A stretch of DNA of 64,000 nt from Diplonema papillatum. Taxonomy: Eukaryota > Euglenozoa > Diplonemea > Diplonemida > Diplonemidae. Shown piece by piece: positions 2,619-57,869 of the stretch. Each line of letters begins with the position of its first letter. Position 1 is the first letter of the stretch. The DNA lies in NCBI GenBank assembly GCA_030068145.1, contig JAPJBO010000360.1, positions 148,270-212,269 on the forward strand. The letters are read 5' to 3'. A program made the translations under genes and the position numbers. The notes beneath the pieces are model-generated. The model worked only from the letters and a program-made list of their open reading frames with translations, was not told the origin of the DNA and did no database searches.

Positions 2619-2935
2619 TTGCAAATTTTTGGTCATTTTTCTGAGTTGGCAAAATTTTGGCCGAAATTTTGGTCGAATTTTTGGTCAAAAATTTGGTCGA
2701 ATTTTTGGTCAAAGTTTTGGTCAAATTTTTGGTCGATTTTTTGGTCGATTTTTTGGTCGATTTTTTTTGGTCAAAATTTTGGCCGAAATTTTGGTCAAAT
2801 TTTTGGTCGTTTTTTTGGTCGATTTTTTTTGGTCAAAATTTTGGTCAAAATTTTGGTCAAAATTTTGGTCAAAATTTTGGTCAAAATCTTGGTCAAAATT
2901 TTGGTCGAAATTTGGTCAATTTTTTTGGGTAATAT
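2619..2935. repeat. tandem AATTTTGGTC array
   Basis: About 20 degenerate copies of a word of 12-16 bp built on TTTTGGTC(A/G)AA. Related words on the opposite strand occur at 8240-8437, on the inner side of the right arm, and in short form at 9888-9925. Open frames across the array give only Phe/Trp/Gly/Gln or Val/Lys/Phe/Leu repeats and are not genes. Confidence 0.8.
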
Positions 2936-3207
2936 ACCAGGATATGCGCGAAAAACTAAAATTTACAAATATATGCGCGGTGCATATATTTGTAAATTTT
3001 AGTTTTTTCGCGCATATATTTGTAAAAAAAAACAGTCTTTTCGCGCATATATTTGTAAAAAAAACAGTTTTTTCGCGCATATATTTGTAAAAAACAGTTT
3101 TTTCGCGCATATATTTGTAAAAAAAAAAAAAAAAGTTTTTTCGCGCACTACAAATACGTTTTCTTTGCAACAAAAGCAGAGCGCCTCTCATCACTGGAGG
3201 CTGGCAT

Positions 3208-3357
3208 ACCCAGACCCGCAAACCCGCATACCCTAACCCGCAAACCTTCGCATACCCTAACCCGCAAACCCGAACCCGCCAACCCTAATACCCGCATACC
3301 GAGACCCGCAAACCCGCCAACCCGCGCCCCTAACCCGCAAACCCGCAAACCCGCGTG
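3208..3357. repeat. telomere-like interspersed repeat inside the MULE arm (left copy)
   Basis: Mixture of CCCTAA, CCCGCAAA and CCCGCATA words. The mirror copy at 9440-9612 reads TTAGGG, TTTGCGGG and TATGCGGG and is slightly longer, so copy number differs between the arms. The TTAGGG words match the commonest eukaryotic telomere unit, but the array is too degenerate to be a true telomere. Confidence 0.65.
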
Positions 3358-3618
3358 CCGGAACTGTTTTGCAAATACACACAGCAGATCAAAGAAAGGG
3401 GGGAAAGGTGGAAAATGCAGATCAAACGGGAGTAGAATGTGCACACGCTTATCCGACTCTTGACTTACTATGCCGTGTTCTGAAAGCTGTCGAGGGGCCC
3501 CTCCATAGGTTCTCGCATGATTCGTTCGCCTTTGTAACACTATCCGTTTGTAGTACGCTTCGCAATTGTGTTCTTGCACTCTAGCCGAATGGCGGGTGGC
3601 GGATTTCCGCGCTCGTAC

Positions 3619-3806
3619 CTTGTGTCTTTTTGAAACACTGCCACGGGGCTGGTGGCCCCCAAAAATGGAAAAAAAAAAATTGCTCAACTTCATCAAAAAT
3701 TACCGCAGTTTTTGTTCCAAAATTTTAAAATTCAAAAAACCCAATTTTTTTCCGGAATTTCTTTTTTGGCCATTTCCAAAAAGACACAAGGTTTTGACCC
3801 TGCATG
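3619..3806. mobile_element. small inverted-repeat element (MITE-like) inside the left arm
   Basis: Begins CTTGTGTCTTTTTG and ends with the complementary CAAAAAGACACAAG extended by GTTTTGACCCTGCATG. It is related to the 210-bp element at 45526-45735, which has both ends complete. The same copy, inverted, sits at 8989-9176 in the right arm, so it was present when the arms were last made identical. Confidence 0.7.
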
Positions 3807-4362
3807 GTACATCCGTTGTGGAACCTCTCGTTGTTTTTGGCATCATACACCCGAAATAGTCACTTTGTGGGCCCTATAATAGGCTACGAACTTCATGGTA
3901 TTTTTACAAATGTGTGAGTGTATGTCATTTTGTATAGTATGTTGAAGTACATTCATTGTGGACCCCATATTCTCGCGATGCTGTGTTTGGCGTCAAAACC
4001 CCGTCTGAATTCACTTTTGATGGCTTTAATGAGGCTAAACACTCGAAATAGGCACTTTGGGGGGAATTTTTTTTGAAAGGGTCTCCCAACAAGAATTGTG
4101 GCATATGCGCGAAAAAACTGTTTTTTACAAATATATGCGCGAAAAAACTGTTTTTTACAAATATATGCGCGAAAACCTGTTTTTTTTACAAATATATGCG
4201 CAAAAAAACTAAAACTGACAAACATATGCACCGCGCATATATTTGTCAATTTTAGTTTTTTCGCGCATATATTTGTAAAAAAAACAGTTTTTCGCGCATA
4301 CGTTTCGTATGCGCGCAGTTTTTTCGGCAGTTTATCGCGCATATATTTGTAAGTTTCCCAAT

Positions 4363-5167
4363 TTTTTTGGTCTACAATTAGACTCCAATCCCTGAGAACA
4401 CACCCATGGCGGGATTCGAACCATTTACCCGGCCATTGACTGTGACAACTGTGTGATTTGGATTCGAACTCAAGTTTCCAATTTCAAGTTTCAAGTTGCA
4501 AGTTTCTTCAATGTGTGGGATACGTTTGGGGGAGTCAAGGTGATTCTGGGGTAGCGTCTAATCTCATCCCATTTCAACTTTGCCTAGGTCTCGTTTACTT
4601 GGACCCCCTTTCTGCCAATTTGCGACTGCCGACTTGCGGCGCAACACTTTGGCAACCATTGCGTTGTTAACTCTCTTGACCTCCAACAACCTTCTTCGTC
4701 AGCGAGTTCGTGGCGGTGTTCGTGACAGGGACTATCAGATTCCTGCAACCCGGCGGCATCTGGACGGCCGTAGTGGGAGCAAGGGGTGCAACACGCTAAA
4801 AGACTGGAAGTACCGGGCATAAATGTTGCGAGCATACGGGTGCTGAAAGAGAAACCGGGAAACATGATACATAGCTCGCAGAGTTCAGACCAGGGTACTT
4901 TTCGATGACACTCTCTTTAACGCAAACGGCGGCAAGCTCTTTGTGGACGATTTTTCAAGTCGGTTCTTATGTAGCCTTCGGGCGTAAACACACGTGGGTG
5001 ACCCTATCTAGACTGTTTCGAGTATCAGACTCCAAAAATTCAAGCAATGATAAGATGATACGACTGTTTCGAGTGATGAGATGATAAGACGTGGAGAAGG
5101 TTGGACTCGCTCCGGGTGGGCGGCGGCTGCGGACGGTCTTTAGTCAAACGAGAAGAGTAGTATGTGC
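4363..5167. other. MULE interior downstream of the transposase gene, no gene seen
   Basis: Non-coding spacer between the left arm and the stop codon of the transposase. It contains a short run of AAGTTTC-type words near 4470-4505 and two copies of GACTGTTTCGAGT near 5010-5075. Confidence 0.5.
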
Positions 5168-8065: not shown

Positions 8066-8239
8066 TTGCGACACAGCTTTGTGGGTTGGGAACCTTCCAA
8101 CGCGCCCAAACCGCCCGAAAACCCCTACCTGCAGCGAAGATGAACGTGTGCAAATAGGTGTGGCCACTCCAGTAGCTGGCACAGCACGGCAAAAGGTTTT
8201 CTGGGTTCGAATTCCGTGTGTGATTTTTCTCAGATTGGC

Positions 8240-8437
8240 TAACAATTGACCAAAAATTTTGACCAAAAAATTTGACCGATTTTTTTTGATCAAATTTTTT
8301 GACCAAAAAAATTTGACCCAAAATTATGACCAAAAATTTTGACCGATTTTTTTTGACCGATTTTTTTTGACCAAAAATTTTTGACCCAAAATTATGACCA
8401 AAAATTTTGACCCATTTTTTTTGACCAAAATTTTTGG
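8240..8437. repeat. tandem TTTTGACCAAAA array inside the right arm
   Basis: About 12 copies of TTTTTTGACC(A/C/G)A words, the complement of the GGTCAAAA words at 2619-2935. Here it lies on the inner side of the arm, between the arm and the gene start, so it may be promoter-proximal DNA for the transposase gene. Confidence 0.7.
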
Positions 8438-8988
8438 GAAACTTACAAATATATGCGCGATAAACTGCCGAAAAAACTGCGCGCATACGAAACGTATGCG
8501 CGAAAAACTGTTTTTTTTACAAATATATGCGCGAAAAAACTAAAATTGACAAATATATGCGCGGTGCATATGTTTGTCAGTTTTAGTTTTTTTGCGCATA
8601 TATTTGTAAAAAAAACAGGTTTTCGCGCATATATTTGTAAAAAACAGTTTTTTCGCGCATATATTTGTAAAAAACAGTTTTTTCGCGCATATGCCACAAT
8701 TCTTGTTGGGAGACCCTTTCAAAAAAAATTCCCCCCAAAGTGCCTATTTCGAGTGTTTAGCCTCATTAAAGCCATCAAAAGTGAATTCAGACGGGTTTTT
8801 GACGCCAAACACAGCATCGCGAGAATATGGGGTCCACAATGAATGTACTTCAACATACTATACAAAATGACATACACTCACACATTTGTAAAAATACCAT
8901 GAAGTTCGTAGCCTATTATAGGGCCCACAAAGTGACTATTTCGGGTGTATGATGCCAAAAACAACGAGAGGTTCCACAACGGATGTAC

Positions 8989-9176
8989 CATGCAGGGTCA
9001 AAACCTTGTGTCTTTTTGGAAATGGCCAAAAAAGAAATTCCGGAAAAAAATTGGGTTTTTTGAATTTTAAAATTTTGGAACAAAAACTGCGGTAATTTTT
9101 GATGAAGTTGAGCAATTTTTTTTTTTCCATTTTTGGGGGCCACCAGCCCCGTGGCAGTGTTTCAAAAAGACACAAG
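8989..9176. mobile_element. small inverted-repeat element (MITE-like) inside the right arm
   Basis: Mirror copy of 3619-3806 at the matching place in the other arm, same length. Confidence 0.7.
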
Positions 9177-9439
9177 GTACGAGCGCGGAAATCCGCCACC
9201 CGCCATTCGGCTAGAGTGCAAGAACACAATTGCGAAGCGTACTACAAACGGATAGTGTTACAAAGGCGAACGAATCATGCGAGAACCTATGGAGGGGCCC
9301 CTCGACAGCTTTCAGAACACGGCATAGTAAGTCAAGAGTCGGATAAGCGTGTGCACATTCTACTCCCGTTTGATCTGCATTTTCCACCTTGCCCCCCTTT
9401 CTTTGATCTGCTGTGTGTATTTGCAAAACAGTTCCGGCA

Positions 9440-9612
9440 CGGCGGGTTTGCGGGTTTGCGGGGTTTGCGGGTTAGGGTATGCGGGTTTGCGGGTCTCGGT
9501 ATGCGGGTATTAGGGTTGGCGGGTTCGGGTATGCGGGTTTGCGGGGTTTGCGGGTTAGGGTATGCGAAGGTTTGCGGGTTAGGGTATGCGGGTTTGCGGG
9601 TCTGGGTATGCC
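9440..9612. repeat. telomere-like interspersed repeat inside the MULE arm (right copy)
   Basis: TTAGGG, TTTGCGGG and TATGCGGG words interleaved. Mirror of 3208-3357, with a few extra units. Confidence 0.65.
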
Positions 9613-10060
9613 AGCCTCCAGTGATAAGAGGCGCTCTGCTTTTGTTGCAAAGAAAACGTATTTGTAGTGCGCGAAAAAACTTTTTTTTTTTTTTTTACAA
9701 ATATATGCGCGAAAAAACTGTTTTTTACAAATATATGCGCGAAAAAACTGTTTTTTTTACAAATATATGCGCGAAAAGACTGTTTTTTTTTACAAATATA
9801 TGCGCGAAAAAACTAAAATTTACAAATATATGCACCGCGCATATATTTGTAAATTTTAGTTTTTCGCGCATATCCTGGTATATTACCCAAAATTTTTGGC
9901 CAATTTTTTGACCAAAAAATTTTGACCAAAATAAAAAGTTTTTTGTGGCTATAAGCTAAATAAAAAGATTTGAAAGTGCTATAAGCTAATTAAAAAGTTT
10001 TACTTTAGGTGGCTATAAGCTAAATAAAAAGTTAGCAGGTGGCTATTAGATAAAAAGCCC

Positions 10061-10069
10061 TTTAAACTT
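10061..10069. repeat. target-site duplication of the MULE, right copy
   Basis: TTTAAACTT directly after the terminal CCC of the element; exact match to 314-322. Confidence 0.85.
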
Positions 10070-10338
10070 AATCCATGGATCATGTTCTACCTCCTGTGAT
10101 TCGTGTGAACTTTTTACAACCGTGTACTTTCCTACAGCAGGACAGGTTCTGCATCTGTTCATTGGGCAACTAATTTCGTTCCCAACGAAGTTGAAACCAA
10201 AGACCCAGAAGACCCACCGTTCCTTTTGATCCTTGCAGCACCAACCAGCCAGGGCTTAGGTCTGGTCAGGCAGTCCAGGCTGATCGGACTCTCTGTCCAG
10301 GCTGTCTGGTCACGCAGTCCAGGCTGGTCGGATTGACT

Positions 10339-10523
10339 GGTCTGGTCAGGTTCTGTGGTCAACAAATTTCGTTCCCTTATATCCCAACCAACAACATTTC
10401 CCCCCGCCCAAGGCAATCCCATTGGGATATGGTCTGGTCAGGTTCTGTGGTCAACAAATTTCGTTCCCTTGTATCCCAACCAACAAAATTTCCCCCCGCC
10501 CAAGGCAATCCCATTGGGATATA
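10339..10523. repeat. 92-bp tandem duplication
   Basis: Two nearly identical copies of a unit beginning TCTGGTCAGGTTCTGTGG, offset by 92 bp, followed by a partial third. Just upstream (10255-10340) are shorter repeats built on GTCCAGGCTG. No gene is visible in 10070-10820. Confidence 0.8.
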
Positions 10524-10821
10524 AGGGAACAAAATTCCAAGTGTTGGGATATAAGGGAATTCCACCTACAAAAACCACGGGTACCCAGTGTGCCCAGAGT
10601 GCCTTAACTGTGGCGAGCAACGAACAGTTTTACCCTGCAAATCTACCCAAAAAAAACCTTATTTTAGGACGGAAACAACCCGCACCACGTGAAGCACCGC
10701 AAGTGCCGCGAAATCCAAGCACCACACTGCGAGAAAATACATATAAACGCGGACAACAGACCGGTACGGGCTACAAGGCAACCCCTGCTCAACTTGTAGA
10801 ACGTGGGAGGCCCAAGACTAC

Positions 10822-30590: not shown

Positions 30591-30615
30591 CCCCCCCCCC
30601 CCCCCCCCCCCCCCT
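30591..30615. repeat. poly-C tract, left border of element A
   Basis: 25 consecutive C; the length may be unreliable in the assembly. Confidence 0.8.
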
Positions 30616-31381
30616 AGGGCTATGGTGGCTGCATACGGCTGCATACGCGTATGCGCCCAAACCTGCATACGCATACGGCGCTGCATACGGCTATGCATAC
30701 GTATGCATACGGCTATGCATGTGGCTGTGACTTCTCTGGCAATGCACCTCCTTCGTCCAGGACGAAGGGGGAGTCGAAAAGGATACTTAAAAGCAAAGTT
30801 TCGTGAGAGTCGACGGAACCTATGTCCGCCGCAACCCGGGGTACACGGGCAGTGTGTTCACTCCCGTAAGCCGACGAGCCGCGCTCCGATGAGGCAACCG
30901 AAGCTGGTTGTCTCAGGATCTGCTGAGCAAGCGCCAGCCTGTTGTAGGCTGTCGTGCGTCATGAAGCATGCTCGTTCAGTGCTTCGAGCTGGCGTTCGAC
31001 GTCGTCGGGGAAAAAGCGAGGCAGACATTGACCGTGGCACGCATCCTCATCGACCTGCTTTCTACTTACCAGTACATTGCATTGTTACACGGTGAGGTCC
31101 AGTCTCAGAAACTGCCGTCAAAGAGGGCGCGAGTCACACCTAAAAAGCGTGTGACACCCGCTTTTTCAACTCCAGCTTTAACTCCAGTTTCTGGGGCTCT
31201 GGACTCCACCGTCTTCACTCATAGGCCCGTCACGCAGCAGCCAGAAGGCCGGGCTGGCCTCACACAGCCCCACCTATGCATACGTATGTAGCCGTATGCG
31301 TATGCATTATGTTCAAATCTGCATACGCATACGCATACGCATACGTATGCACGTATGCAGCCAGCCCAGCCCTAGGGGGGG
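30609..31381. mobile_element. inverted-repeat element A
   Basis: Ends are CCCCCCCTAGGGCT and the complement AGCCCTAGGGGGGG, each followed inward by GGCTGCATACG-type words. The subterminal zones (30625-30725 and 31275-31365) are arrays of GCATACG and its complement CGTATGC in both orientations. The interior has plus-strand protein-like stretches (30870-31290) without recognisable domains. Length about 0.77 kb. The right border G-run is shared with element B. Confidence 0.75.
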
Positions 31382-32528
31382 TCAATCTACTGTTTAAAAG
31401 TGTCCCAATGGACCATTTTTCAACCTTCAAATATAACGACAAAGCCGGCTCCGAAAACTGGATTTTCGGGTGCAAAACACCAATCCAGCACGAAATACCG
31501 CTGGATGTGCACCCAACGGGCGTTGAATGGTAGCTCAACAAGGGTGTCAAAAGTGCTGTCCAAAGTCGTGCCACCCTTTTACCCCAGGCTACTTCAACCG
31601 CCAAAATTCACTTTAAATTCATACTGGGAGACCAGGAGGCCCTCATCTGCGGTGGAAACCACCAGCAAAAACGCTATTTTGCTACGCCAGGCTAGGGGAG
31701 ACTGAGTTTAACGATCAAAGAGAGCATCACCGAGCTGCAGCCGTAAGTCAACGCTGATGCCTTCGTACGGCAAGGCAGTTGCAGCCCTGTCGCAAGATTA
31801 ACCAGCTCCGCGCGTTGCATTTTCGAAAGAAGCCCCTCAGGTAGACGTAAGGTCCAGTTTGTGCCACCTTAGCAGATGTGAAGGGTGAATGCTGCTTCTG
31901 AATCATTGCAAAAACATTCCTGTCGTCCTCATAGGCGGCGCGCAGTACCGGAGAAGAGCTGCTCAGACCAATGTTCGTGCAGTTCTGGGACACGCTTTGT
32001 GGAAAGTGAGGAAGAAAAACGGTTCGACATTTTTGCATGACGACAAGCACAGACGGTAGCCCCGCTGTCCCCGCTTTCCCTCGATCCGAGCCTCCTACAC
32101 GTAGGAGCATCGTGTCCTTCAGCACTACTGAAAAAAATCGAACCTACAGAGCACATTCTCACTCTAGCTGTTCTGCCATCATATGGGCGTCTCCGCGACC
32201 AATGAACCCCCTTTCTTCTTGTATTGGTGAGGCATGGTGCGCGAGACAAGCGTTTTTTTTCTACTTTTTTGCTGCCTGTGTGGTGGCCTTGAGCTGCATT
32301 ACCATCCACCTTTTACAATTCTGCGGTGGGGTAAAAGGGTGGCACGACTTTGGACAGCAATTTTGAATTCGCGTTTTATACTCGTTTTAGGGCTCTACAC
32401 TCGATTTTAGGCTCGAAAACCCTGTGGAAATGACGGTGTGGGGTGCTCTACAGGGGGCCAGGTCCCCAGGAGGCCCTAGTACGATGAACTTTGAAAAATG
32501 CCCAATTGGGACACAGATTGACCCCCCC
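31375..32528. mobile_element. inverted-repeat element B
   Basis: Begins GGGGGGGTCAATCT and ends AGATTGACCCCCCC. The match continues inward in blocks, for example GTGTCCCAAT next to the end and GCTGTCCAAAGTCGTGCCAC at 31554 and, inverted, at about 32340, giving arms of roughly 200 bp. A minus-strand protein-like stretch at 32125-31748 has no recognised domain. Shares a C/G-run border with A on the left and C on the right. Confidence 0.7.
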
Positions 32529-32987
32529 TACACGGTGCACTAGTCATTAGGAATTCAGCGTTCTTACTAGTAAAATTACTAGTGAAAATGTCTTACTAGT
32601 GCCACTAGTCATTCTTACTAGTGGCACTAGTAAGAATGACTAGTGCACTAGTAAGAATGACTAGTGCACTAGTAAGAATGACTAGTGCACTTGTCATTTT
32701 TGCTAGTGTTTTACACAGTAAAGTCCATTTTTAGGCGGTGGATATGGTGTGGGTGTACGACCCACGCTCGAATACTGTTCCGCGGGTTCGTCCTGCCGCT
32801 GTTGTGCACGCCGAGAAGAACAAGTGAATGGGATAAGCATGGCCCGAAGTCTGGGGTGTGATGGGTGGGGAATTGCAAGAACACGTGTTTGGAATGGGTA
32901 TGTGCTCAGGGTGTGATGGGTGGGGAGGGGGGAACAACGGAAGAAAGGGCCATGTGGCATAGAGTGCTGAATTCAGAGGAGGTAAGA

Positions 32988-34558
32988 CTACCTTCCACCC
33001 GTGTGGGCATCGCGCATGTGGGCATCCCTTCTGCGTGCATCGGCGAACCTTTGCATGCACAGGGGGCAGGTCTTCTTGTCAAGCTTCTCAGCATGAACGT
33101 ACAGCAGGTGTTGGGTCAGCCCGCCCTTGCGAACTGTCTTTTTGCACGATGGACATTGCGTTGTGCATTCGCAGGTGACTGTAGGGCGGTGGTGTGCGTC
33201 GTAGTGTGCGAAGAGGCCGTGGATCTGCGTGTAGCTCTTCTGGCTGGTAATACACCCGTGCTCGCTGCTCTCGTTTTCAGGGTCGGTTGTGCTGCTGTCC
33301 GCATCGTCATCCTCCTCCTCATCGGAAGTCGGGTTGTTGTGCCACGGCTTCTCGTTGCAAATGCAAATCTTGAGAAGAACACCTTCACGAGCAGGACTGC
33401 TACGAAACTTCTGTCCCCATCGTTCAGTTCTCCGGCATACGTGGGCACCCAAACCAGCCCTTCGGAGGCGGGCCTCCAGGTTTTCTGCGGCTTGCTTCCA
33501 CACCGTACTTCGTGCAGTGATGCACTTGCAAAGAAATATGGTGTCGTACTGGTACAGGTGTGGGAGGGGATTGCGACACGCGGGCGCGAGGTCAGGCGCA
33601 AACCCTCGCGGCGCGCTTCGCTTCGTGTCCAGGCTCTTGAGGTGCTTTGTCTGCAGCTCGATTTCCTGGAAGTCTCGTTCCATTGTCTTCTGGGACGTGC
33701 AGGCGGACCACCTTTTGCGCTCACCGTTCATCTGCATCCTCTTCTACCCGACTAGCATCCGGAAGTGTCCGGATCACGAGCCATAGCATGCCCTTCACAT
33801 CGTGCAAGGCTGGTGTGATGGCATGCGCTGGTTCCGTGATACGGGCGGCAATGTTGCAGTGGAAGCCCTGCGCATGCATTTCCTGGATGCTAAGCCGTTT
33901 GCATCTGTGCAGGTGTGCCAACCGCGTCTCAATGCAGGTTGCACAAAAGGCACTTCGGTGCCCGCCACCGCCCACGCCTCGAAAGAGCGACCACAATTCT
34001 GCGTGGTCACCACCAAACACAAATCGACTCAGAGGAATGATTGCATTGTTCTTGCGGAACGTACTTTCCTGAATAGCGCTCAGATGCGGCAGGCAGCTGA
34101 AGATCCACCATGAGTGGAAGGCAGGCTTCCGCTTATCGCACACAGTAAGAAACCGCGTCGCCTTGAGGTCCCCGGACAGTCCAACAGCAAGACGCTGCCT
34201 CCCTGTTGCCCCACGGAAGGCGTTGCCTGGTTTGTACGCGTCCATTGTCACAACCACTGCGGGTGGGCAGCCACCCTGCTCCAGTGGAAACTTGGACAGC
34301 AGGAACGAAATTGCCTTCGGGGTATCCCCGACCAACTCGTCGGCCATCGCCTTGAACCCTGCTTCGCGTGCAGCAAGGGTGTTGTAGGACAGCCCCATGG
34401 TCCAGGCCAAGTTCGCTATTAATTAGCGAGCCCAGCTGGGCACACTGACGCATAGACATGCCGAATCGCATTCTGTTCTCTGCAATGATGCCACCGATAG
34501 CGCGCGCTGTCGGTGCATGGTATGCATCCATTGTTGTCTTCCCCCTGCGGTGTTTCAA
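32988..34558 (-). pseudogene. element C protein with C-terminal C2H2 zinc fingers, frameshifted
   Basis: Read on the minus strand, 34558-34420 starts MKHRRGKTTMDAYHAPTARA. A frameshift near 34420 leads into 34410-33721 (contains SYNTLAAREAGFKAMADELV, VVVTMDAYKPGN, FVFGGDHAELW and FCATCIETRLAHLHRC). Another frame change near 33730 leads into 33737-32988. That last part has an acidic stretch (DEEEDDDADSS) and two C2H2 fingers at its end (CPSCKKTVRKGGLTQHLLYVH split as C-x2-C-x12-H, and CPLC ... HMRDAH). Together they suggest one protein of about 520 residues encoded by the element. The conserved Asp-containing motifs could belong to a nuclease, but I do not recognise the superfamily. Confidence 0.5.
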
Positions 34559-35140
34559 GGCTGGCGATGTGGGACCGTACGAGAATCATACTACGTAAGA
34601 ACTATTGCAACGCGCCCTCCTCTCTGGCCGAGACCCCGACTCCTGTCCATCAGGGCTGACATCATCGTCAACACATGCTCATTTTGTTTTTGTTGGGAGT
34701 AGTCCTGTTGACGATGACGATGACAGTTGACGAAGACAATGGCAGCCCTGATGGACAGGAGTCGGGGCCTGGTGGTTCATAAAGTATCCTGGTGGTTCCA
34801 CATTGTTCACCAGCGAGTGCACTTGGGCCAGAGGGTGGGGCGCGTTGCAATAGTTCGTACGTAACTTTGTGTAGTATGATTCTCGTACGGTCCCGCATCG
34901 CCAGCCTTATCACTCACGAAACACCGCAGGGGAAAACAACAATGGATGCATACCATGCACCGACAGCGCGCGCTATCGGCGCCATCATTGCAGGGAACAT
35001 AATGCGATTCGGCATGTCTATGCATCAGTGTGCCCAGCTGGCTCTCTACAGCAGTGAATGGCGAGCTTGGCCCGACCACGGGGCTGTCCTCCACAACATC
35101 TTTGCTGCACGGAGGGCTTCCGCTGCAACATTGCCTCACA
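34350..35140. repeat. large imperfect palindrome inside element C
   Basis: 34350-34680 is repeated inverted at 34700-35140 with several gaps. Shared blocks are AACAATGGATGCATACCATG, GATTCGGCATGTCTATGC and CCTGTCCATCAGGGCTG. The right arm therefore carries an inverted partial copy of the start of the element's own gene. Confidence 0.75.
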
Positions 35141-35542
35141 ACACAAAAGGTTCTTGGGAAACTCCTCTGCCAGGCGACTGGAAATGTTGTGCGCACTTAC
35201 GGCAGGTGGCTTGGCAACCTAGTGTTCACCATTCATGTTTCTGCGTGCACAACATCGGCAGGACGAACCTGCGGAACAGTATTCGAGCGTGGGTCGGACA
35301 CCCACGCCATATCCACCGCCTAAAAATGGACTTTACTGTGTAAAACACTAACAAACATGACTAGTGCACTAGTCATTCTTACTAGTGCACTAGTAATTCT
35401 TACTAGTGCACTAGTCATTCTTACTAGTGCCACTAGTAAGAATAACTAGTGGCACTAGTCATATTACTAGTAAGATTTCTTACTAGTAAGTTCACTTTAA
35501 AATGACTAGTGATTGGCCTTACTAGTGCACCCCCCCCCCCCC

Positions 35543-36112
35543 TCGCCTTGCTTAAGCTCTTGCTTTGGCAACCTGTCGCTTTTGTGACGCCACAAACTTC
35601 GTTTCCCGAGACGTTACCATACGGCCCAACCCCCGAACACCAAGAGAGGTACAGTTTGGAAGGGACTGCATGTCAAAGCAGGAAAAGGCATATGGAAACG
35701 CTCAGAACCGATAAAGAACAAAAAAGGTCGTAACCCAACACAGGACGAGAAGGAAGGAGCAGCACCACCAGAACCGAGAAAGAACAAAAAAAGAAGAATA
35801 CTACGCACCAAACCCACCACCCTCCCCAACCCGGGCTTCCTTTTTACCCCTGCAAACCCGTGAATAGGTGCTACGGGAGTATCTGGCAACTGCTGCTGAA
35901 CAGTGCTCACGTGGGCGGTGTCTTCGGACAGCACCTCGTGATGTTCGCATCACAAAACAAAGAAGACAGTGAAATGGTCGTTACCTGGTCGGGTTTCGCT
36001 CGCGACCGTTTCCTGAACAATCCTTCACTAAATCCGCGGTTAAATAACCTGGCCTCAGTGGTGCAAGCACCACGCGCTCTTCAAACCCAAGAAACATTTT
36101 CCCCCCGTTGAG
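35543..36112 (+). repeat. direct duplication upstream of the PPR exon, copy 1
   Basis: Matches 36158-36845 almost base for base in two blocks (35546-35895 and 35897-36110). Copy 2 has an extra 120 bp between the blocks (36518-36637). Copy 1 ends at TTTTCCCCCCG, exactly where copy 2 continues into the splice acceptor CAG, so copy 1 lacks the exon. Confidence 0.85.
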
Positions 36113-36157: not shown

Positions 36158-36845
36158 ACGCCTTGCTTAAGCTCGGCACCCGGTTGCTTTGGCAACCTGT
36201 CGCTTTTGTGACGCCACAAACTTCGTTTCCCGAGACGTTACCATACGGCCCAACCCCCGAACACCAAGAGAGGTACAGTTTGGAAGGGACTGCATGTCAA
36301 AGCAGGAAAAGGCATATGGAAACGCTCAGAACCGATAAAGAACAAAAAAGTCGTACCCAACACAGGACGAGAAGGAAGGAGCAGCACCACCAGAACCGAG
36401 AAAGAACAAAAAAAGAAGAATACTACGCACCAAACCCACCACCCTCCCCAACCCGGGCTTCCTTTTTACCCCTGCAAACCCGTGAATAGGTGCTACGGGA
36501 GTATCTGGCAACCGCTGCTAACACTGCTCGACCTTGACGACCAATGGCAGGTGACGACGTCATCCGATAACCTGACTTTCAAGGCAGTGCATGCTAATCC
36601 ATGTGGTTCATGTACTTAAAAGAAACTCAATGCTTAACAGTGCTCACGTGGGCGGTGTCTTCGGACAGCACCTCGTGATGTTCGCATCACAAAACAAAGA
36701 AGACAGTGAAATGGTCGTTACCTGGTCGGGTTTCGCTCGCGACCGTTTCCTGAACAATCCTTCACTAAATCCGCGGTTAAATAACCTGGCCTCAGTGGTG
36801 CAAGCACCACGCGCTCTTCAAACCCAAGAAACATTTTCCCCCCGC
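36158..36845 (+). repeat. direct duplication upstream of the PPR exon, copy 2
   Basis: Ends with CCCCCCGCAG, the presumed 3' splice site of the PPR exon. Shares CTGTCGCTTTTGTGACGCC and CACGTGGGCGGTGTCTTCG with copy 1. Confidence 0.85.
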
Positions 36846-43910: not shown

Positions 43911-44130
43911 ATATGGTACACGGTGCAGTAGTAAACTTGTAAAATGACCCTTTTACTAGTAAATTTACTAGTAAAAATTTTTACTAGTAAAATTTACACT
44001 TTTACTAGTAAAATTTACAAGTGCACTAGTAAATTTTACTAGTGCACTTGTAAATTTTACTAGTGCACTAGTAAAAATTACAAGTGAATTCAGGTGTTTT
44101 TCAATCCAAAACAATGATTTATAGGGGGTT

Positions 44131-44574
44131 TTGCGTGAAAAATTGCGAGATCGAAAACTGGGGAGGTGTGGTCGATGTGCACTACCCCTCGGACTGAGTT
44201 GGGCAGGGTTGTTGGGAGCCTTGATGGGAATCATCTCCCCTGAGACAGCCGCGCCGTTGAAAAAGGATGAGAGGAGCAGCGCGCACCCAACTGGAACTGT
44301 ACGCACTGTCCAGCCCCTTTCCCCTGAGACTTTTGTTGAGGAAAAGCGTCTACAAAATGAGAAGAAACGGAGGCAAGAGAGACGCTCTGTGAGTGGTGTC
44401 GTGCCAAATTCACAACAGTGGAACACACTCTACAATGGCGACGTGAGCGGGGAGCGGGGAACCCTGGGCAGAAGCGGCCACCTGACTGTTGCTACTACTT
44501 CCAGTCGGTCCGAGCTTGCCTGCCACTTCCCAACACGCTTCGGCACGGAGGCTTTGCCCAAGCAGGGATCTTGA
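44131..44574 (+). CDS. protein-like open frame inside element D, unidentified
   Basis: 147 codons, with a charged segment EEKRLQNEKKRRQERRS in the middle. No membrane segment beyond a short Gly/Ala/Leu stretch near residue 25. It could be an exon of an element-encoded protein together with 44616-44915. Confidence 0.3.
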   Translation: MREKLRDRKLGRCGRCALPLGLSWAGLLGALMGIISPETAAPLKKDERSSAHPTGTVRTVQPLSPETFVEEKRLQNEKKRRQERRSVSGVVPNSQQWNTLYNGDVSGERGTLGRSGHLTVATTSSRSELACHFPTRFGTEALPKQGS

Positions 44575-44615
44575 CATTGTTGTTGCCGCAGTAAGGAGTT
44601 CCACACAGCCCATCA

Positions 44616-44915
44616 ATGAAACACTCGGGCTCGACCATAATAGTCAGTGTGAGGTTTCGTAAACATGAAAAAGCGGACGAGGCAGCAGGAAGAGTGCTGA
44701 ACGGACGAAGCGTCTTTGACGTGGATCGGTCTACCATGATGCAGGCCTCCAATATGTATGCGCCCAAGATGCCGCCGGTGGAAGAGATCGGCAGGTTTGC
44801 ACGGGGGACCCTCGAGCATCAGAGGAACCGCAGACTCCAAGAGCGACTAAACGCGCCCCAGAGCAGCATCAAGACGCTGCACCAACTCCGGAGGTCCAGC
44901 GGAGCAATGCGCTAG
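44616..44915 (+). CDS. protein-like open frame inside element D, unidentified
   Basis: 99 codons with natural composition: FRKHEKADEAAGRVLNGRSV, STMMQASNMYAPKMPPVEEI, EHQRNRRLQERLNAPQSSI. The VLNGR stretch also appears in the R220-related repeats at 42666 and 60733 (GTGCTGAACGGACG). Likely part of an element protein or a captured exon. Confidence 0.35.
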   Translation: MKHSGSTIIVSVRFRKHEKADEAAGRVLNGRSVFDVDRSTMMQASNMYAPKMPPVEEIGRFARGTLEHQRNRRLQERLNAPQSSIKTLHQLRRSSGAMR

Positions 44916-45420
44916 TGAGGCAATCGATTCTACAAAACGGCACAACGGAGATGTGGTTTAGGAGGGTGCAACGAAAAGGCCACCTCTCAACACATTCTGA
45001 CAGCGGGCGACACAGCGCACCTTGGATGGTTTCAGCCGGAGGCGGACCAAAGGCCGGTGTTCGGGCATCCACCCGAATGCAGGCCCTGGACGCCTATGCG
45101 AAGGGAACCACGCGGTAATCCGGAGTGGGGCTCTACGCGTGCCAGCTGCCCGGGAGACAAGTGCGCTGAAAGGGCAACATGGGCCCTACAAGCATAGGAA
45201 GAAGGTGAGAACGCAAGCACGGCAGCGGCAGCAACACCCCAAGAATCAACGACAATAAAATGAAGCAGAAGGCACACTGCGTTCGTTCCCAACACCCCGA
45301 CCCGACCAAGCAACCACCAAACCCCAAGAAGTACTAATCTCACAGCAACAGCCCAAACAACTTCCCCTAGCACCCTCGTGTGACAAGAATTCTCCAGTCC
45401 TCGAAACCCCCCGTGGAGGA

Positions 45421-45520
45421 AAGGAAATATGTTGGACCGAAAATATGTTGGACCGGACAAAAGTTGGACCGCGGACGACCAAGGCAACTGGACCATTTTG
45501 TCCGGTCCAACATATTTCCG
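45421..45520. mobile_element. 100-bp palindromic element (MITE-like)
   Basis: GGAAATATGTTGGACCG at the left and CGGTCCAACATATTTCC at the right, with inner GGACAAAAGTTGGACC and its partner. A related fold occurs at 46268-46352. Confidence 0.7.
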
Positions 45521-45525
45521 TTTAC

Positions 45526-45735
45526 CATGCAGGGTCAAAACCTTGTGTCTTTTTGGAAATGGCCAAAAAAAAATTTCCGGAAAAAAATTGGGTTTTCTTG
45601 AATTTAAAAATTTTGGAACAAAAACTGCGGCAATTTTTGAGGAAGTTGAGCAATTTTTTTTTTTCCAAAATTTTTTTTGGGGGCCACGGCTCCGCGGGAG
45701 CGTTTTAAAAAGACACAAGGTTTTGACCCTGCATG
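45526..45735. mobile_element. 210-bp MITE with TTAC target duplication
   Basis: Inverted ends CATGCAGGGTCAAAACCTTG and its complement at the right end, continuing about 40 bp. Flanked by TTAC at 45522-45525 and 45736-45739. The uninterrupted site (TTTCCGTTTACGGTATTTGC) is present at 46346-46365, which confirms the borders. Truncated copies are inside both MULE arms. Confidence 0.9.
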
Positions 45736-46267
45736 TTACGGTATTTGCCTTTCAGAGTTGACCGCCAGGCGCGTATCCACTTAGGCGGGGTTGGGTCGAT
45801 GGGCATGAGGTAAAAAAATGTCCCTTGACAAATGGGTAGTCAGGCGCGAGAGATGCGTTGGGTTTCTTCTTGAGCGTACCAAGATCGTCGTTTATTGGCG
45901 GCTCATACTTTTTCCTTCAACCTCGAGCCACTTCGTTTGCACTCTGCATTTTTGCGTTTGCACTCTACCAAAGCAATGGGACAGACGGTGGACGCATCTT
46001 GGTCCACCTTCGGCACTGACCAACCGCAACCGGTCGCGATCAAACATCCTTCCACGCAAGGAAGATCTTGTGATTCCACCACAGGGCTATGGCGACCAAT
46101 GGCTGGACCATGGCCAGGGTGCTTCGTTGCGAGTTGCTGGAGGGAACTCAGCGGGTTACGCAGCGCCGCGCACTGTTCGGGAACTCCTGGCGGCGGACCC
46201 ATGCGCGACTACGGAGTGGAGCGAGTGCTGGTCAGCCGCAAAACTGCACGAAGTACACAGAACCCCC

Positions 46268-46352
46268 CGAAAAAAGTTGGCCGGACAAAAGTTGGACCAC
46301 CAGAGCCCAAAATAGGTGAGTTGGACCTTTTTGTCCGGTCCAACTTATTTCC
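46268..46352. mobile_element. short palindromic element related to 45421-45520
   Basis: GGACAAAAGTTGGACCACC and TTTTTGTCCGGTCCAAC pair across an AT-balanced centre. It is followed by the empty site for the 210-bp MITE. Confidence 0.6.
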
Positions 46353-47023
46353 GTTTACGGTATTTGCCTTTCAGAGTTGACCGCACTGTTGCCCACGACT
46401 CAGTCCAAAAAATGGATGCCAAGCCTGTCCGGCATAAGACGCACGCAGGCAGAGATATTCGTAACCTCCTGGGCCAAACGCAAGATACCAGAGCGTCTTT
46501 TGCCGTGCAACTCTATTTCTGGTACCAGGACGTACCTGTGCACGACTCTGCTCTGAGAGGACAAGGACGCCTCCTCCCTCGCGGTCCGTCTCTTCCGATG
46601 TTATTGTCCTGTGTTCCCACCGCATCGAGCCACAGGGGGGTCGGGTTCGAGTGTTCACGTTTGCCTTGGAGTGGGGGAAACCTGGATTGACGCGGTCTGC
46701 CTACGCGCGGGGCTCTCAAGCACTGGGTTGTCACTTTGCTCTGCTCTCCCAGCCCCATTTTGACGAGTTAGGTGAAAAAGAAGCCGGTTCTTCTGAATGT
46801 GTGCTTCACTTGCCACAGTTTCTTCTTGTTTCACCCCAAAACACCTGCCAAAACACCTGAAATCACTTGTAAATTTTACTAGTGCACTTGTAAATTTTAC
46901 AAGTGCACTTGTAAATTTTACAAGTGCACTTGTAAAATTTACTAGTGGCACTTGTAAACCATTTTCACTTGTAAAACCACTAGTAAATTTACTAGTGAAA
47001 GCCTTTACTACTGCACCGTGTAC

Positions 47024-48249
47024 GATTGCCAAAGGGGGGGGGGGGGGGTTTTGGGCAGATGTTTTATGGCATAGTAAGATACTGGGCATGTGGGGTATGG
47101 GACCCATATCCCCCCAGAAACCATTTTTTCGGGCCGGTTTTGGGGCCAAATGCCCTCGGAGAGCCTTTTTCTGAGCGCAAAACTCTGTTTCTGTGGGTTT
47201 CGAGGCCCCGCACGGTGCACTCCAGCATCGTGTGGGGGTGTTAACTGTGCGGCCAAAGTGTCGGGCGTGGGCACACCTGCTAGATCCAGTGTGCCACACC
47301 CGCAAATCCAGCGTGAAATCCACTGACACCCAAAAATCCAGTGCGGAATCCAGTGTGACACCCGCAAATCCAGTGTGAAACCCACTGTACACCAGCTAAA
47401 ACAGTTCCCCAAGTTGGATCGAGTCACCTGTCGTCCAACGCAAATCAATCATCAAGGAGGCGAGGCCCCTGGTTGTTAAAAAAGCTGACCCCAGGTTCTT
47501 CTGGCAGTAGAAATCGGCCTGTCGGATCGAAAGAAGTGAGTTTGCTGCTGGTAACCTCACGAAGGCGATAGTTAATCGTGTTCCCTTCTGCAGGTGTCGC
47601 ACACGTCCGGCCAGGTGTTCGAACCGGGCACCACGTAGCTGGCGGTACTTAGTTGGCCTTCTTCGTCCACCAGCCTGTGCTAGAAGGATTTGTGCGACGA
47701 ACGTCTTGTGCACGACAGCTTTTCCGTGACCCACGACGTCGGTGGTTGCCTCCACGAGATCGTCGAATGCCTGCTGCCTCATGGGTCACCTTTGTCGGTC
47801 GCCCTCTGTACAGAGACCCCGGGCGCAATCGGGTCAACTCCTGCAGCTTTCATCAGAAAGGCTCTCGTCGCTCTAAAATGTCTCCGCATGGAGCCCTGTG
47901 ACCTATCGTACTTCGTGTGCGTCTTGCCTTGCAAATTTTTGAGCCAATTCTTCGAACGAAACGCATTTACGAGTCACGCATTCTGAGAACAGAGTTAAGT
48001 TCCTGTTCTGGGTGGGTGCTGCCGCCGTAGCCATTGTACGGTCGTAACCCTACCTGGGGCCTCAAAGTCCACAACAACTGAGTTTTGCGCTCAGAAAAAG
48101 GTTCTCCGAGGGCATTGGACCCCAAAATTGGCCCGAAAACATGGTTTCTGGGGGGTTATGGGTCCTATACCCCACATGCCCAGTATCTGACTATACCAGA
48201 AAACATCTGCCCAAACCCCCCCCCCCCCCCCCCCCCCTTTTTGGCATCG
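47024..48249. mobile_element. inverted-repeat element E
   Basis: Ends GATTGCCAAA plus a G-run, and the complement (C-run TTTTTGGCATC). Arms of about 155 bp (47024-47182 and 48079-48249) match well, for example GATACTGGGCATGTGGGGTA and TTTTTCTGAGCGCAAAACTC. A tandem array of AAATCCAGTGTGAAACCCAC words lies at 47280-47395. Its left end touches the right end of D with no intervening base. Confidence 0.85.
47396..47782 (-). CDS. protein-like open frame inside element E, unidentified
   Basis: 128 codons on the minus strand (FDDLVEATTDVVGHGKAVVH, RTRLTIAFVR-like stretches, LPAANSLLSIRQADFYCQKN). Composition is plausible but not decisive, and the opposite strand is also partly open. No domain recognised. 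Confidence 0.25.
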   Translation of the reverse strand: MRQQAFDDLVEATTDVVGHGKAVVHKTFVAQILLAQAGGRRRPTKYRQLRGARFEHLAGRVRHLQKGTRLTIAFVRLPAANSLLSIRQADFYCQKNLGSAFLTTRGLASLMIDLRWTTGDSIQLGELF

Positions 48250-53392: not shown

Positions 53393-54100
53393 TCTGCTGT
53401 CTCGATTACACGGGGGAGGGTAGGTACCAGAAGAAAAAGCAGGAACGGTTCCGCCCCGAACGGAGAACGCCGTAACGTTGCAAACCCGCCCCCCTTAGTT
53501 TGTAGTGCATGCAAAATCCATGTGGTTCACGTGCTACAAAGGAGCTCAAGAGCCTTCGACGTCCATCGCCACCGACGAGCGTTCGTGGCGTGCGGAGCTA
53601 TTTTGAGCCGGTCCGTCCCTATCTCTTGAACCTGCATCGAAGTGCCTGCCGCTGTTAATCACAGTGAATCACGATCCACCACGGTCTATCAGGTCCATCT
53701 CTAGTCCCTAGAGCTGCATCGAATTGCCCGGTGCTGTATTCTTCGGTCTATCACGGTCTATCAAGCGGATGGACCGGCTCATATTTGCAGACATCGCGCG
53801 TCGTACCTCACAAAGGATTTGGCCCTCGCTTCGAAGATGTCAGTCGGAGACTGTAAAACACCGGATTATCAAAAACAAGCGGATCGCACCAGGTCTCCGT
53901 ACCCCCTCCCCCTCCTTGGTGATCCCTCTTGAGAAGTAGCGCGGGAACTTTGTGCTGACTTCAAACTGCTGAAGGCACCGATTGGTAGAAGAACGAAGAA
54001 GGAGGAAGGGGAGGAGAAGCAAAACCGAAACCGAAAAATGAGCAAAAAAAAAAAAAAAGAAAGAGTATCAACACAAATCAGGCGTTTTTTAACCACCCCC

Positions 54101-55119
54101 CCCCCTAGGCATACATCCGATACGACTCGTATTCTCGCATATTCTCGTATTGGGGGGTCGCGGCCCCGATTCTCGCAAAATTCTCGCATGATTCTCGCAT
54201 ATTCTCGCACGTGCGAGAATATGCGAGAATGAGATAACTCACAGTACAGCATGCTTGAACATATGAGAAACCGGCAGGAATCAACGTTTTAGGTCATCTC
54301 CGAGGCTTCCGCGGCATATTTTTCCGCCACTGGGCCTCCGAACTTCTCAAGCTGCTGCTTTCTCTGTGTAGTGAACTTTCCTTTCCTCCTCTGCCTTCAC
54401 TGCCACAGTTCGTTTTGTGTGTTCGTGGAAACAGGCTTTCAAGCTGTTTATGAACTCGGGAACCGAATTTGCTTGTGCTTTTAGCGTTATTTGAGGATTA
54501 GGTCTCCTTGACTCGCTGTCGCTGGGCTCGCTAGATGCCAAGGGCTCGCGGACGTACCTGCGGACCGTTGCCATCCAGAGAGCCTGCAACCTAATAATGC
54601 ACCTGCAAACGGCCCCGAGGCCAATATTCAAAAAGCCGGTGCCTCCTAAGTCAGCGGCAACTGAATGGTACCCGCAGCTTCACGAAACGAGCTGTGGCAG
54701 AGGAAATCGTAGAAGAAAACACAAGAAGCCGCAGCGGAGAAGTTGCAGGCACGGCGGTGGACGGAGCACTTCTTGTGAAGCATGGTTTCGACCATTATTC
54801 AAGCATTGAAAGCAATACCATGGAGCAACCAGAGTTGTTGTTGACAACATAGTGTGTTGAGGTGTCCTTGCCTTGAAAGCAGGACACAATGCCAGCTACA
54901 AAGCTGCAGTTGGCATAGCCTTATTTCGTTCTTTCGCTATCTTCACTTGGTATTGCTGTCGGAGCCTCAAATACGGGTCAAATACATGGTTCTTGAGTGG
55001 TTTACACATTCTCGTATTTCACTCGTATCATTCTCGCATGCGAGAATATGCGAGAATTTCATGCGAGAATGCGAGAATCATTCTCGCATACGAGTCGGAT
55101 CGGATGTATGCCTAGGGGG
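54101..55119. mobile_element. inverted-repeat element F
   Basis: Ends CCCCCTAGGCATACATCCGA and the complement (TCGGATGTATGCCTAGGGGG), one mismatch further in (CGACTCGTAT). Subterminal zones (54135-54235 and 55010-55090) are arrays of ATTCTCGCAT and ATGCGAGAAT. The interior minus strand at 54631-54347 has a protein-like stretch (QANSVPEFINSLKACFHEHT). Terminal CCCCCTAGG is shared with element A. Confidence 0.85.
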
Positions 55120-55672
55120 TCCAATGGCAAGCCAAATAAACGCGTTTTGCATTTTTTCGAGCTCTGGCGGCAAAGTCGGTTGACTTCATGAGGTACCTCC
55201 CCCATACCGGCGCCTTCACACCAAAAAAATACCGAAAACTGCATCAAATAGCCACCTACCGCCCGCATTTGGTCGCAAAATCTCTTTTTTAGGGTTTTGA
55301 AAGTGTGGACAAAGTGTGGACACTTTGCACAATTCTCTCCTTTCAGCCGCCGGCGACAATAAAGTGCGACTCCGAGCTGAGTTTCAGCCAAGCATACCAT
55401 CTTGCGGGTCATGTTGCCACTAAAAGATGTATCCGGGTGCATTTTGGACTCCAGAAGCGTTCAGAGACTGTGCAGCCTCACGTAAAAAAAGGTAGGACCA
55501 GCCGGAATGCTGCAACTTTTGTGAGAAACCCAGCTCACATGACCGCAGAGAGCTCTTGAACTGACGCAAACTGTGCAGACCTCGGCCTGTGACCGTACCA
55601 TAGTGTCAACAGCAGGGTCAGTCGGTCAACAACAGGGCATTTTTTGACCACTAAACCTCATGGATTGATGTG

Positions 55673-55762
55673 TACACGGTGTGTACACGGTGTGTACACG
55701 GTCTGTACACGGTCTGTACACGGTCTGTACACGGTCTGTACACGGTGTGTACACGGTACGCA
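55673..55762. repeat. 11-bp tandem repeat, about nine units
   Basis: Units GTGTACACGGT and CTGTACACGGT; each contains the palindrome TGTACA. Open frames across it read as Val/Tyr/Thr/Cys repeats and are not taken as coding. Confidence 0.9.
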
Positions 55763-55879
55763 ACTTCGTTTTTTCCAGACTTTCGGGGAGGTTAAGAAGG
55801 AAATACGACCTCGGGGGAGCGCCCAAACACCCCCCTGTGTCATCTTGCCGGACGAGCCGTAGCGGAGTGAACTTAAAAC

Positions 55880-56557
55880 GTGAACAAAAAGCTGAAAGCG
55901 CCCCCCTGGCGAGCGAAATGCGACTCAATGTTGCCGACGAGACAGTCGGACCGCGAACGAGCTGAAATTCTGAGCAGACTGGGATTGGTGGACCCTTCTG
56001 GCCTGCTCGGAAGGTTGGAAGCCCAGGCAGGCTCGTTTGTATGGCTCCTTGGCCACATTTTACGGTGCCGACAGTCAGAACACCGCCTTACAGGATACTG
56101 TGCGCAGGCGAAACAGAAAGGCAAACAGCGTGAAGAAGAGCTCGAGGAGTTTCGAACGCCGAGAAGCGTTAAGTCGGGTCGCGGGTGGTCCCCAATAACG
56201 GTGCTGCTGCCAATGACACTCAGAGGTGCCGGCCTGGAGCAGACAGCGGTGAAAATGGTTTTGTTTGACTTTAAGCTGCTTCCAGACGTCGACTGTGAGC
56301 CTGCTCTGTCGTCTGCGGTTGAGAAATCAGTTGGCACCGTCATGACGTGCGGTGCATGTAGTTTCAACACGCAGGCCCATGGAATCCGCACCTGTTTGAC
56401 CCAAATGCTCCAAATACCCCTGAATAGCTGCCTTCTGCCCTCAACACCCTTCATCCTCGTCGTCTCTCTCTCGCTCTTCCTTGCATACGGAATGCGGCAT
56501 TTAAGAACTTTGGAAGCTCGGTCAGCTGCTTGGAAAGATACTTCAGAATACCAATGA
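55880..56557 (+). CDS. hypothetical protein, weak candidate
   Basis: 225 codons. The middle is plausible protein (SDRERAEILSRLGLVDPSGL, AGSFVWLLGHILRCRQSEHR, QTAVKMVLFDFKLLPDVDCE). A hydrophobic stretch (FILVVSLSLFLAYGM) near the end could be a membrane helix. The opposite strand is also open for 347 codons, but its Ser-rich runs look like the reverse of this frame's Glu codons. No family recognised. Confidence 0.3.
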   Translation: MNKKLKAPPWRAKCDSMLPTRQSDRERAEILSRLGLVDPSGLLGRLEAQAGSFVWLLGHILRCRQSEHRLTGYCAQAKQKGKQREEELEEFRTPRSVKSGRGWSPITVLLPMTLRGAGLEQTAVKMVLFDFKLLPDVDCEPALSSAVEKSVGTVMTCGACSFNTQAHGIRTCLTQMLQIPLNSCLLPSTPFILVVSLSLFLAYGMRHLRTLEARSAAWKDTSEYQ

Positions 56558-56986
56558 ATCCGGGCTAGCAAGCCCCAAAGGCAACTTGAGCTACCAATGA
56601 CTGCCGCTTGAAGTGTTTTGGCAACTTGGCAACGCTGGAAACAGGCTCGAACCGACGTTCCATCTTCAAAAGTTGACCTCCACAGCAAAACCTGGGTTCG
56701 CCGTCGAAAAGTGCCGCAACTGGGATGTGAGCTCGAAGTCGAAAACACGAGTTTTACGAAGGCAAGACAGGAGATGAAGTGGGAATCACGTAAGTCAATT
56801 CTCAGATGGGTCCACAAATATGGATTTTGCAGAAGGTGTGCGTCAGTTCTGCCGCAAACGACCGCTGCAGAGTCGAAGGAACGTTTTGGTGATTTTTTTG
56901 GGGCTGCGGGAAACACGCCAAAACGGCCTGAAATCCATGTTTACGCATTTGCTGAGGGGGAATACCGCACACACCCCGGTGTTTGA

Positions 56987-57869
56987 TACCCCCCAGCATA
57001 TTTCCAGCACCGTTCCGGGCCTCGAAGGGCGCTGTTTTGGCCTTTTCTTGCCTCCCGTTTGAACACCACGTTTTCTCCTTTGGCCATTGGACCCCCTACC
57101 CCCCCCCCTCCCAACCATCCTCTCCCCTCTCTTCATCGTTCTTTCCTCTTTTGTTTTTTTTTATCTCGTTTTTCTTTTTTTCGTCTCAGAGAAGAAAAAA
57201 GAAGGTGGAGAGGGGCGTGTAGGGACATTTTACTTAAGGAAAGCTCACGAGCGAAGCAAACCGGGCTGGGAGAATACATTGCCAGGCAGTGCTGTTACGA
57301 GGGTTGAACCAGGGCAATACGACTAGCCGTATTGAGGTCGTGTCAGAACCACTACTCCACGTTCACAGGGCGGAGTGCAGGGTTTATCCTGTATCCTTCA
57401 TTCTGAACGCCATCACTACGCTGATGCCTAGCAAGCCGCGCCTCCTCTAGCCTCCTTCGAAGTAGGCACAAGACAGCCCCGAGTATGTCTGGGTTCTCCC
57501 GAAGCCGGTAATTTTCCTTCGGACGTGCTTCCCTTCGTGACCTGTGTGTTTCCATCGACTTCTTCTGTTCCTTCTGTTTTCGGGGAGCTGCGAATTGCGG
57601 GCCATCACATCCGCTCCATTAGCAGCCAGAAATCTCGGGAGCGTCGTCTCGGAATTACCTACCGCAGCAAGGCAACCCCTGCTCCACATGTATCCATCCG
57701 TCGAAGGCAATGCGATCATACAGTAGTACGGCCTGGGAAGTCACCCAACCGACGCTATTACAAAAAGTAACAACAGAGAGACAGAGAGTTTCTTCTTTGT
57801 CTCCTTCCGGTTCTTTGTGCGCATTACTTTTGTGCGTTCGTTTTTTTTTTTTTTTTTTTTTTTTTTTTT
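56987..57869. other. no gene seen
   Basis: Pyrimidine-rich stretch at 57090-57190, an isolated R220 right-end piece at 57446-57487, and a T-run of about 30 bases at 57840-57869. Confidence 0.45.

Follow-up and report, generated by a model that had tools for sequence, protein, structure and literature searches.

Three transposon types joined end to end in Diplonema papillatum, with hAT elements at the borders of elements that sit in C/G runs

Among DNA transposons, Tc1/mariner elements duplicate a TA at their target, and CACTA/EnSpm elements have CACTA or CACTG ends, a 3-base-pair (bp) target duplication, a Transposase_21-type domain and, as known from CACTA elements, arrays of subterminal words. 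The target duplications of hAT elements are reported as 8 bp long (PMC3942097), those of the Buster group as being of the form nnnTAnnn (PMC3517528), and those of Mutator-like elements (MULEs) as 8-11 bp long (PMC6446971). Strict choice of target is described as rare in DNA transposons; Dada was reported in 2013 to be the first superfamily of that kind and comprises DDE DNA transposons that carry a DxxH motif and insert specifically in small RNA genes with 6-7-bp duplications, Dada-U1 and Dada-U6 being given there as devoid of terminal inverted repeats (PMC3706591). Here we analyse a stretch of 64,000 nucleotides of the Diplonema papillatum genome (assembly GCA_030068145.1, contig JAPJBO010000360.1, positions 148,270 to 212,269), hereafter the window, in which three elements, A, B and C, stand end to end at positions 30591-35542. 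These are three different types of transposon: A is assigned to the hAT elements, B belongs to families that sit in runs of C or G, and C is of a third kind.

Below, a run is written as its letter followed by its length, contigs of the searched genome (271 Mb, 2910 contigs) are given as contig C with a number, and stretches fetched from it as L with a number. Read from left to right, the chain is C24 - TA - A - TA - G7 B C7 - TA - C - C11, with a TA at nearly every border. It starts with a tract of 24 C (30591-30614), the left leftover of the B landing site, and A (30620-31369), a non-autonomous element with arrays of the word GCATACG inside both ends, lies between two copies of the 8-bp sequence CCCTAGGG (30612-30619 and 31370-31377), the second of which overlaps the left TA of B and its first three G. 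B (31373-32530) is likewise non-autonomous, has the ends TAGGGGGGGTCAATCT...AGATTGACCCCCCCTA and matches in design a family that we call the TCAAAA type. At its right TA stands C (32531-35531), with ends of the type CACGGTGCACTAGT, and the right leftover of the landing site, C11, closes the chain (35532-35542). The right end of C stops short of GTG and TA, about 5 bp (GTGTA) having probably been lost within the C run. As had been claimed from the letters alone, A and B share one run of seven G (31375-31381), seven C stand between B and C (32522-32528), and each element has inverted ends of its own.

We consider it probable that B inserts in C/G runs, that hAT elements then insert at the palindromic border of B, and that C-type elements take other TAs. 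B would be a cut-and-paste DNA transposon that duplicates about 10 bp of the run and whose ends carry TA and 5-8 G at their start. In a run of C, the junction at one end would thus be palindromic, C(n)-TA-GGGGGGG, and that at the other end same-sense, CCCCCCC-TA-C(n). CCCTAGGG is part of the palindromic junction and would be the 8-bp target (nnnTAnnn) that the hAT families A, A' and A'' prefer; insertion there would duplicate CCCTAGGG, so that hAT ends come to abut B. C-type elements would duplicate a TA and, in the window, would have taken the one at the same-sense end of B, while repeats of the process in leftover tract, together with slippage in the runs, would give longer alternating chains.

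The hAT assignment of A comes from a coding relative that uses the same kind of site, A itself belonging to a non-coding family, an end of which was also found beside a TCAAAA-type B on contig C150. This relative belongs to what we call the main A family, which differs from that of the window in having GTTTCC words and the ends GGGCTAAGTTGG / GGGCTATGTAGG, and which counts about 626 copies (one end word, up to 2 mismatches). An element of 3.7 kb with these ends on contig C13 encodes a protein of 650 amino acids (aa; L026:1756-3705) with the domains DUF659 (6.7e-11) and Dimer_Tnp_hAT (9.7e-7), both above the Pfam cut-offs, and a BED finger below its cut-off. With 100% identity and without stops, the protein was found at 14 loci. 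The copies of CCCTAGGG on both sides of A fit the nnnTAnnn form of Buster and are compatible with an 8-bp duplication, in a site that is palindromic and lies within runs. Resemblance to Buster extends over the two domains, the form of the target and the ends of the A' families, which start with CAGTG after CCCTAGGG as in the Buster consensus (PMC3517528); it is a likeness of domains, site and ends, and A differs in that its site is almost always CCCTAGGG and mostly the border of another transposon. Insertion of A into poly-C by itself was dropped as an explanation, in view of the hAT domains and of the complete lack of TACCC after main A family ends (0 of 71, see below).

The association of A with B is not peculiar to the window. 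The TCAAAA-type B family has about 342 copies, and our place counts rest on 100 listed copies each of A and B, the B sample consisting of the 65 that lie on contigs C1-C113. An A end word occurs within 4.2 kb of at least 52 of these 65 copies, against 1.25 expected, and A abuts B in at least 46 (within 12 bp on either side for the fixed end of A, 260 bp for its variable end), both figures being minima for hAT neighbours of all kinds. The original prediction had proposed to check whether end-to-end junctions are over-represented, and for the two families counted they are, strongly so. Seen from the other side, a TCAAAA-type B lies near 53 of the 100 listed A copies. An A end and a B end can be joined in four ways, all of them common (16, 12, 11 and 9 cases), which indicates many independent joins. 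Some of the remaining B copies also have neighbours of this kind: those on contigs C49 and C77 have other A-type ends, that on contig C99 has an A outside the listed exact words, and on contig C28 there is A sequence at the expected position of the far end of B, the junction itself being unread. On contig C30, an A end word and sequence of X, a B-type family of the window described below, are about 1.2 kb apart, again with the junction unread.

The joins obey a rule of polarity. In all fetched sequence, of which the first 20 places were selected for the word CCCCCTAGG at both ends and are biased accordingly, main A family ends are followed by TAGGG in 63 of 71 cases and never by TACCC; of the other eight, a T(G)n border accounts for five, a C-type element comes next in one, and two show other changes. 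Among 68 fetched TCAAAA-type B ends found by script, a sample partly picked for having A, TA plus exactly seven G was present in 57. By what lies outside, 31 ends stand at a hAT end, 19 have a same-sense G run after the TA, 3 an unoccupied run of opposite sense, 8 are without TA and 7 are otherwise arranged. The same-sense runs are 7-32 long, and 17 of the 19 reach at least 10. The two borders of a B within a run therefore differ, one being palindromic (C(n)-TA-G7) and the other same-sense, and hAT elements are at the former. Where A stands on both sides of B (contigs C3 and C11), the runs on the outside have opposite senses, consistent with this rule. Unoccupied palindromic junctions on B were found on contigs C1, C40, C75 and C163, and scar-like ones with an extra TAGGGCC or TAGGCCCTAGCCC on contigs C103 and C133; together they suggest that B came before A. 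At L152 (C133:19080-19180) and L161 (C103:132580-132670), the B borders have TAGGCCCTAGCCCTAG(n) and TAGGGCCTAG7 and resemble hAT excision footprints.

That the TA belongs to B and not to its target follows from tracts free of the element. In copies of T, an inverted repeat of the window (47034-48231), that hold no insertion, the tract contained a TA in none of 20, with a pure run of at least 11 in 11 of these. Direct comparisons were possible at two filled sites: on contig C99, CCGCCCAAA-C11-TA-A-B-C13-TTTTGGCATCG has the empty counterpart CCGCCCAAA-C9-TTTTGGCATCG in L005, and in a tandem array that we call W, the empty neighbouring unit CAGCCGGCTGA-C13-AGGC stands against C17-TA-hAT-B-C28 on contig C1001. 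The left flanks on contigs C936 and C1505 had no match to a known empty site. Two sites display a target duplication of about 10 bp, namely contig C26, with CCCTTTACCC (10 bp) on both sides of B, and contig C16, where the composite is flanked by AC10 and AC11 (10-11 bp); some other sites are without one. The word C9TAC8 occurs 69 times in the genome, against 9 for the reversed word, and such sites may be remnants of lost B copies. At L176 (C147:189690-189760), the sequence after an A end reads TA-G27-TA-G11-TA; the multiple TAs within this run are possible traces of repeated B loss. T itself has a long G/C run in its arms after CGATGCCAAAA. Exact matches to its terminus word ATGAGACGATGCCAAA number 595 genome-wide, and many of 20 fetched copies continue in a run of G or C, which differs in length between them.

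The B families as a whole have ends of the form TAGGGGG(GG)TC. A B element of 2.76 kb on contig C2 encodes a protein of 734 aa, which was found at 100% identity over its full length at 8 loci; with the 14 loci of the identical 650-aa hAT protein, this points to recent activity of both partners. Short B copies look like deletion derivatives, with the final 199 codons of the coding element kept at an identity of about 55%. A relative on contig C113 begins TAG8TAATGTC beside G9 and has the same design. On contig C1392 (about 5360-10752), a B frame of 708 aa, some 26 residues shorter (Asp-rich stretch), lies beside a hAT frame of 650 aa that is intact; the distance between the two is what a pair of abutting elements of coding length would give, the junction being unread. 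Inspected by eye, the 734-aa protein shows D273, D346, C365xxH368 and E601, a DDE-like layout D...D...CxxH...E that would suit a transposase. Among relatives in the genome, L200 retains D346 and CxxH, L201 has D346 but CSTQ, and the fragments L202 and L203 retain E601, the fetched relatives covering the protein outside D273. A D/CxxH arrangement after the second D is described as common to hAT, Kolobok, P, MuDR and IS256 (PMC3706591). B resembles this group, and Mutator-like elements in particular, in this layout as read by eye and in the apparent duplication of about 10 bp at two sites, and differs in its short ends, in its insertion in C/G homopolymers and in that its protein has no significant match in Pfam, NCBIfam or PDB. 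MULE and Transposase_mut models were absent among the matches of the whole protein (E<=1) and of its middle part (E<=10), in searches where the HMMER filters drop most weak matches, and a single-protein query, suited to close relatives, found none outside this genome in the viral or prokaryotic collections. With Dada, B would share the character of a target-specific DDE-type DNA transposon; placing B in Dada fails, given its insertion in C/G runs and its duplication of about 10 bp, and B also has terminal inverted repeats.

C shares its end type (CACGG) with D (43919-47020), a second element of the same kind inside the terminus of T. D has TA on both sides (43917-43918 and 47021-47022), and the element-free form of its site, ATATGG-TA-CGATGCC in L005 and L021, identifies this as a TA target duplication; C occupies the TA at the other, same-sense end of B. 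On the minus strand of C, a fragment of 233 aa (33721-34422), presumably of a transposase, belongs to no Pfam family; its genomic matches at E<=1e-10 number 155, among them related open reading frames 630-661 aa long. A C-terminal part of the protein (32988-33743, minus strand) has zinc-finger-like motifs (zf-Di19, 1.3e-5, below the cut-off). No Pfam transposase model was found in the C fragments, which are less than the full-length protein. With a TA duplication at D and a protein unrelated to those of A and B, C and D form a separate family. They resemble CACTA/EnSpm elements in their CAC-starting ends and subterminal word arrays, and Tc1/mariner in the TA duplication; the CACGG ends, the TA duplication at D and the lack of a Pfam transposase model in the C fragments set them apart from CACTA/EnSpm.

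The window holds a second composite at 54096-57108, with the order C10 - TA - F - TA - X - TA - C10, which repeats the design of the A-B chain with other families. Between the left and right copies of the landing site (C10 at 54096-54105 and 57099-57108) lie F (54108-55112), rich in the word ATTCTCGCAT and placed at a CCTAGG junction of X, and X (55113-57098), a B-type element with the ends TAGGGGGTCCAATGG...CCATTGGACCCCCTA. An end of the same family as F also stands at a B junction on contig C161 (L172). X had been overlooked in the original prediction, which took CCCCCTAGG as an end shared by A and F. This word is target sequence plus the end of the neighbour, the hAT end proper starting at 30620, and what A and F have in common is a landing site rather than an end. 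The window has 4 copies of CCCCCTAGG (0.23 expected) and the whole genome 2443, against 1853 for the reversed word, only a mild enrichment for the word alone.

The subterminal word arrays reported for A, C, D and F are real, with counts far above those in 200 dinucleotide shuffles of each element: 18 GCATACG in A (shuffle mean 0.22, maximum 2), 26 ACTAGT sites in C (mean 1.08, maximum 8, against 52 strand-counts, the word being self-complementary and each site counted twice), 12 in D (24 strand-counts; mean 0.92, maximum 8) and 10 ATTCTCGCAT in F (0 in shuffles). The proposal built on them, a single group of elements that share one design and differ in exchangeable words, did not hold: A is placed with hAT, C and D form a separate family and B has a third protein, and three unrelated proteins rule out one family. 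Unrelated superfamilies with separate, non-touching borders had been named as the outcome that would speak against such a group; the superfamilies are indeed unrelated, but the borders touch.

Several observations weigh against the sequence of insertions that we favour. The far-side, same-sense TA of B is missing at both directly compared filled sites (contigs C99 and C1001), and the TA of the same-sense side is missing in 8 of the 68 B ends. Only two sites display the B duplication, 10 bp being invisible within homopolymers, and at one of them, contig C26, CCCTTTACCC may have been a tandem beforehand. The flanks of B do not match on contigs C40 and C153, and on contigs C11, C13 and C15 the run on one side is short or interrupted, without a mirror image on the other; these misfits may reflect slippage or later change of the sites. 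C8TAG8 is absent from the genome, against 2 occurrences of the reversed word. The border of F fits 6 bp (CCTAGG) instead of CCCTAGGG, and the length of 8 bp for the A duplication depends on the hAT assignment, because the duplication lies inside a palindrome and runs. The A-B-A chains (contigs C3 and C11) and B-A-B chains (contigs C58 and C69) need an extra step of collapse between neighbouring TA-G runs. Lastly, a hAT end already flanks B on one side at every one of the eight loci that share the identical intact protein, so that hAT invasion must be very fast if B comes first.

This last point is what one would expect if the hAT element came first in the tract and B inserted beside it, recognising its TA or GCCCTA border, and on contig C69 a B does sit in the G run behind a hAT end (G9-TA-G7). 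We nevertheless regard this order as unlikely: a lone hAT element in a C run must show TA-CCC after one of its ends, which none of the 71 A ends does, B copies without A and with scar-like junctions exist, and B brings its own TA into the tracts. The constant adjacency could also be read as A and B moving as a single composite unit. Here the four configurations led us to reject the idea, whose chances we put as very slight; the lengths of A vary, and several families (A, A', A'', that of the window A, and F) occur at B ends, which leaves no single composite lineage.

Insertion of B before hAT was further set against a reading in which every element duplicates TA and all share, as a landing pad, C(n)-TA-C(n) sites that existed beforehand. 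The 69 C9TAC8 sites and the single TA shared between adjoining elements agree with it, but element-free tract copies have no TA and longer repeats lie outside the TA on contigs C26 (with the reservation made above) and C16, on which grounds TA duplication by B at such sites was rejected; 69 sites also seem too few for hundreds of B copies and may themselves be scars of lost B. We hold this reading to be quite improbable. The least credible reading, already raised in the original prediction, is that the G/C-run junctions are artefacts of assembly. Run lengths of homopolymers in the assembly may indeed be inexact, palindromes are hard to assemble and C8TAG8 is lacking; yet the same junctions recur at tens of loci with differing flanks, as does TA with exactly seven G in most fetched B ends, and unique sequence runs on at both sides.

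Elsewhere in the window, a direct repeat of 95% identity (35544-35760 and 36159-36382) lies just right of the chain, and a large inverted repeat occupies 2908-9907, with arms of 1031 bp (99% complementarity) and 364 bp (98%) and about 4 kb between them.

In the open-licence PMC papers searched, we recognised no account of a DNA transposon targeting poly-C/G or of hAT elements targeting the border of one, and both a DNA transposon that targets homopolymers and has an unclassified protein, and the use of its border by hAT elements, appear to be new. We suggest, tentatively, that the B-type elements could constitute a new DDE superfamily specific to C/G homopolymers, whose TA+G7 end offers a ready palindromic target that hAT families live off, in a two-tier system. 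Repeat annotation may merge such A-B composites into false single families. B itself, through its end, would provide the missing half of a hAT target, and the identical intact-protein copies of both partners make the target choice of B and the dependence of hAT elements on B borders directly testable.

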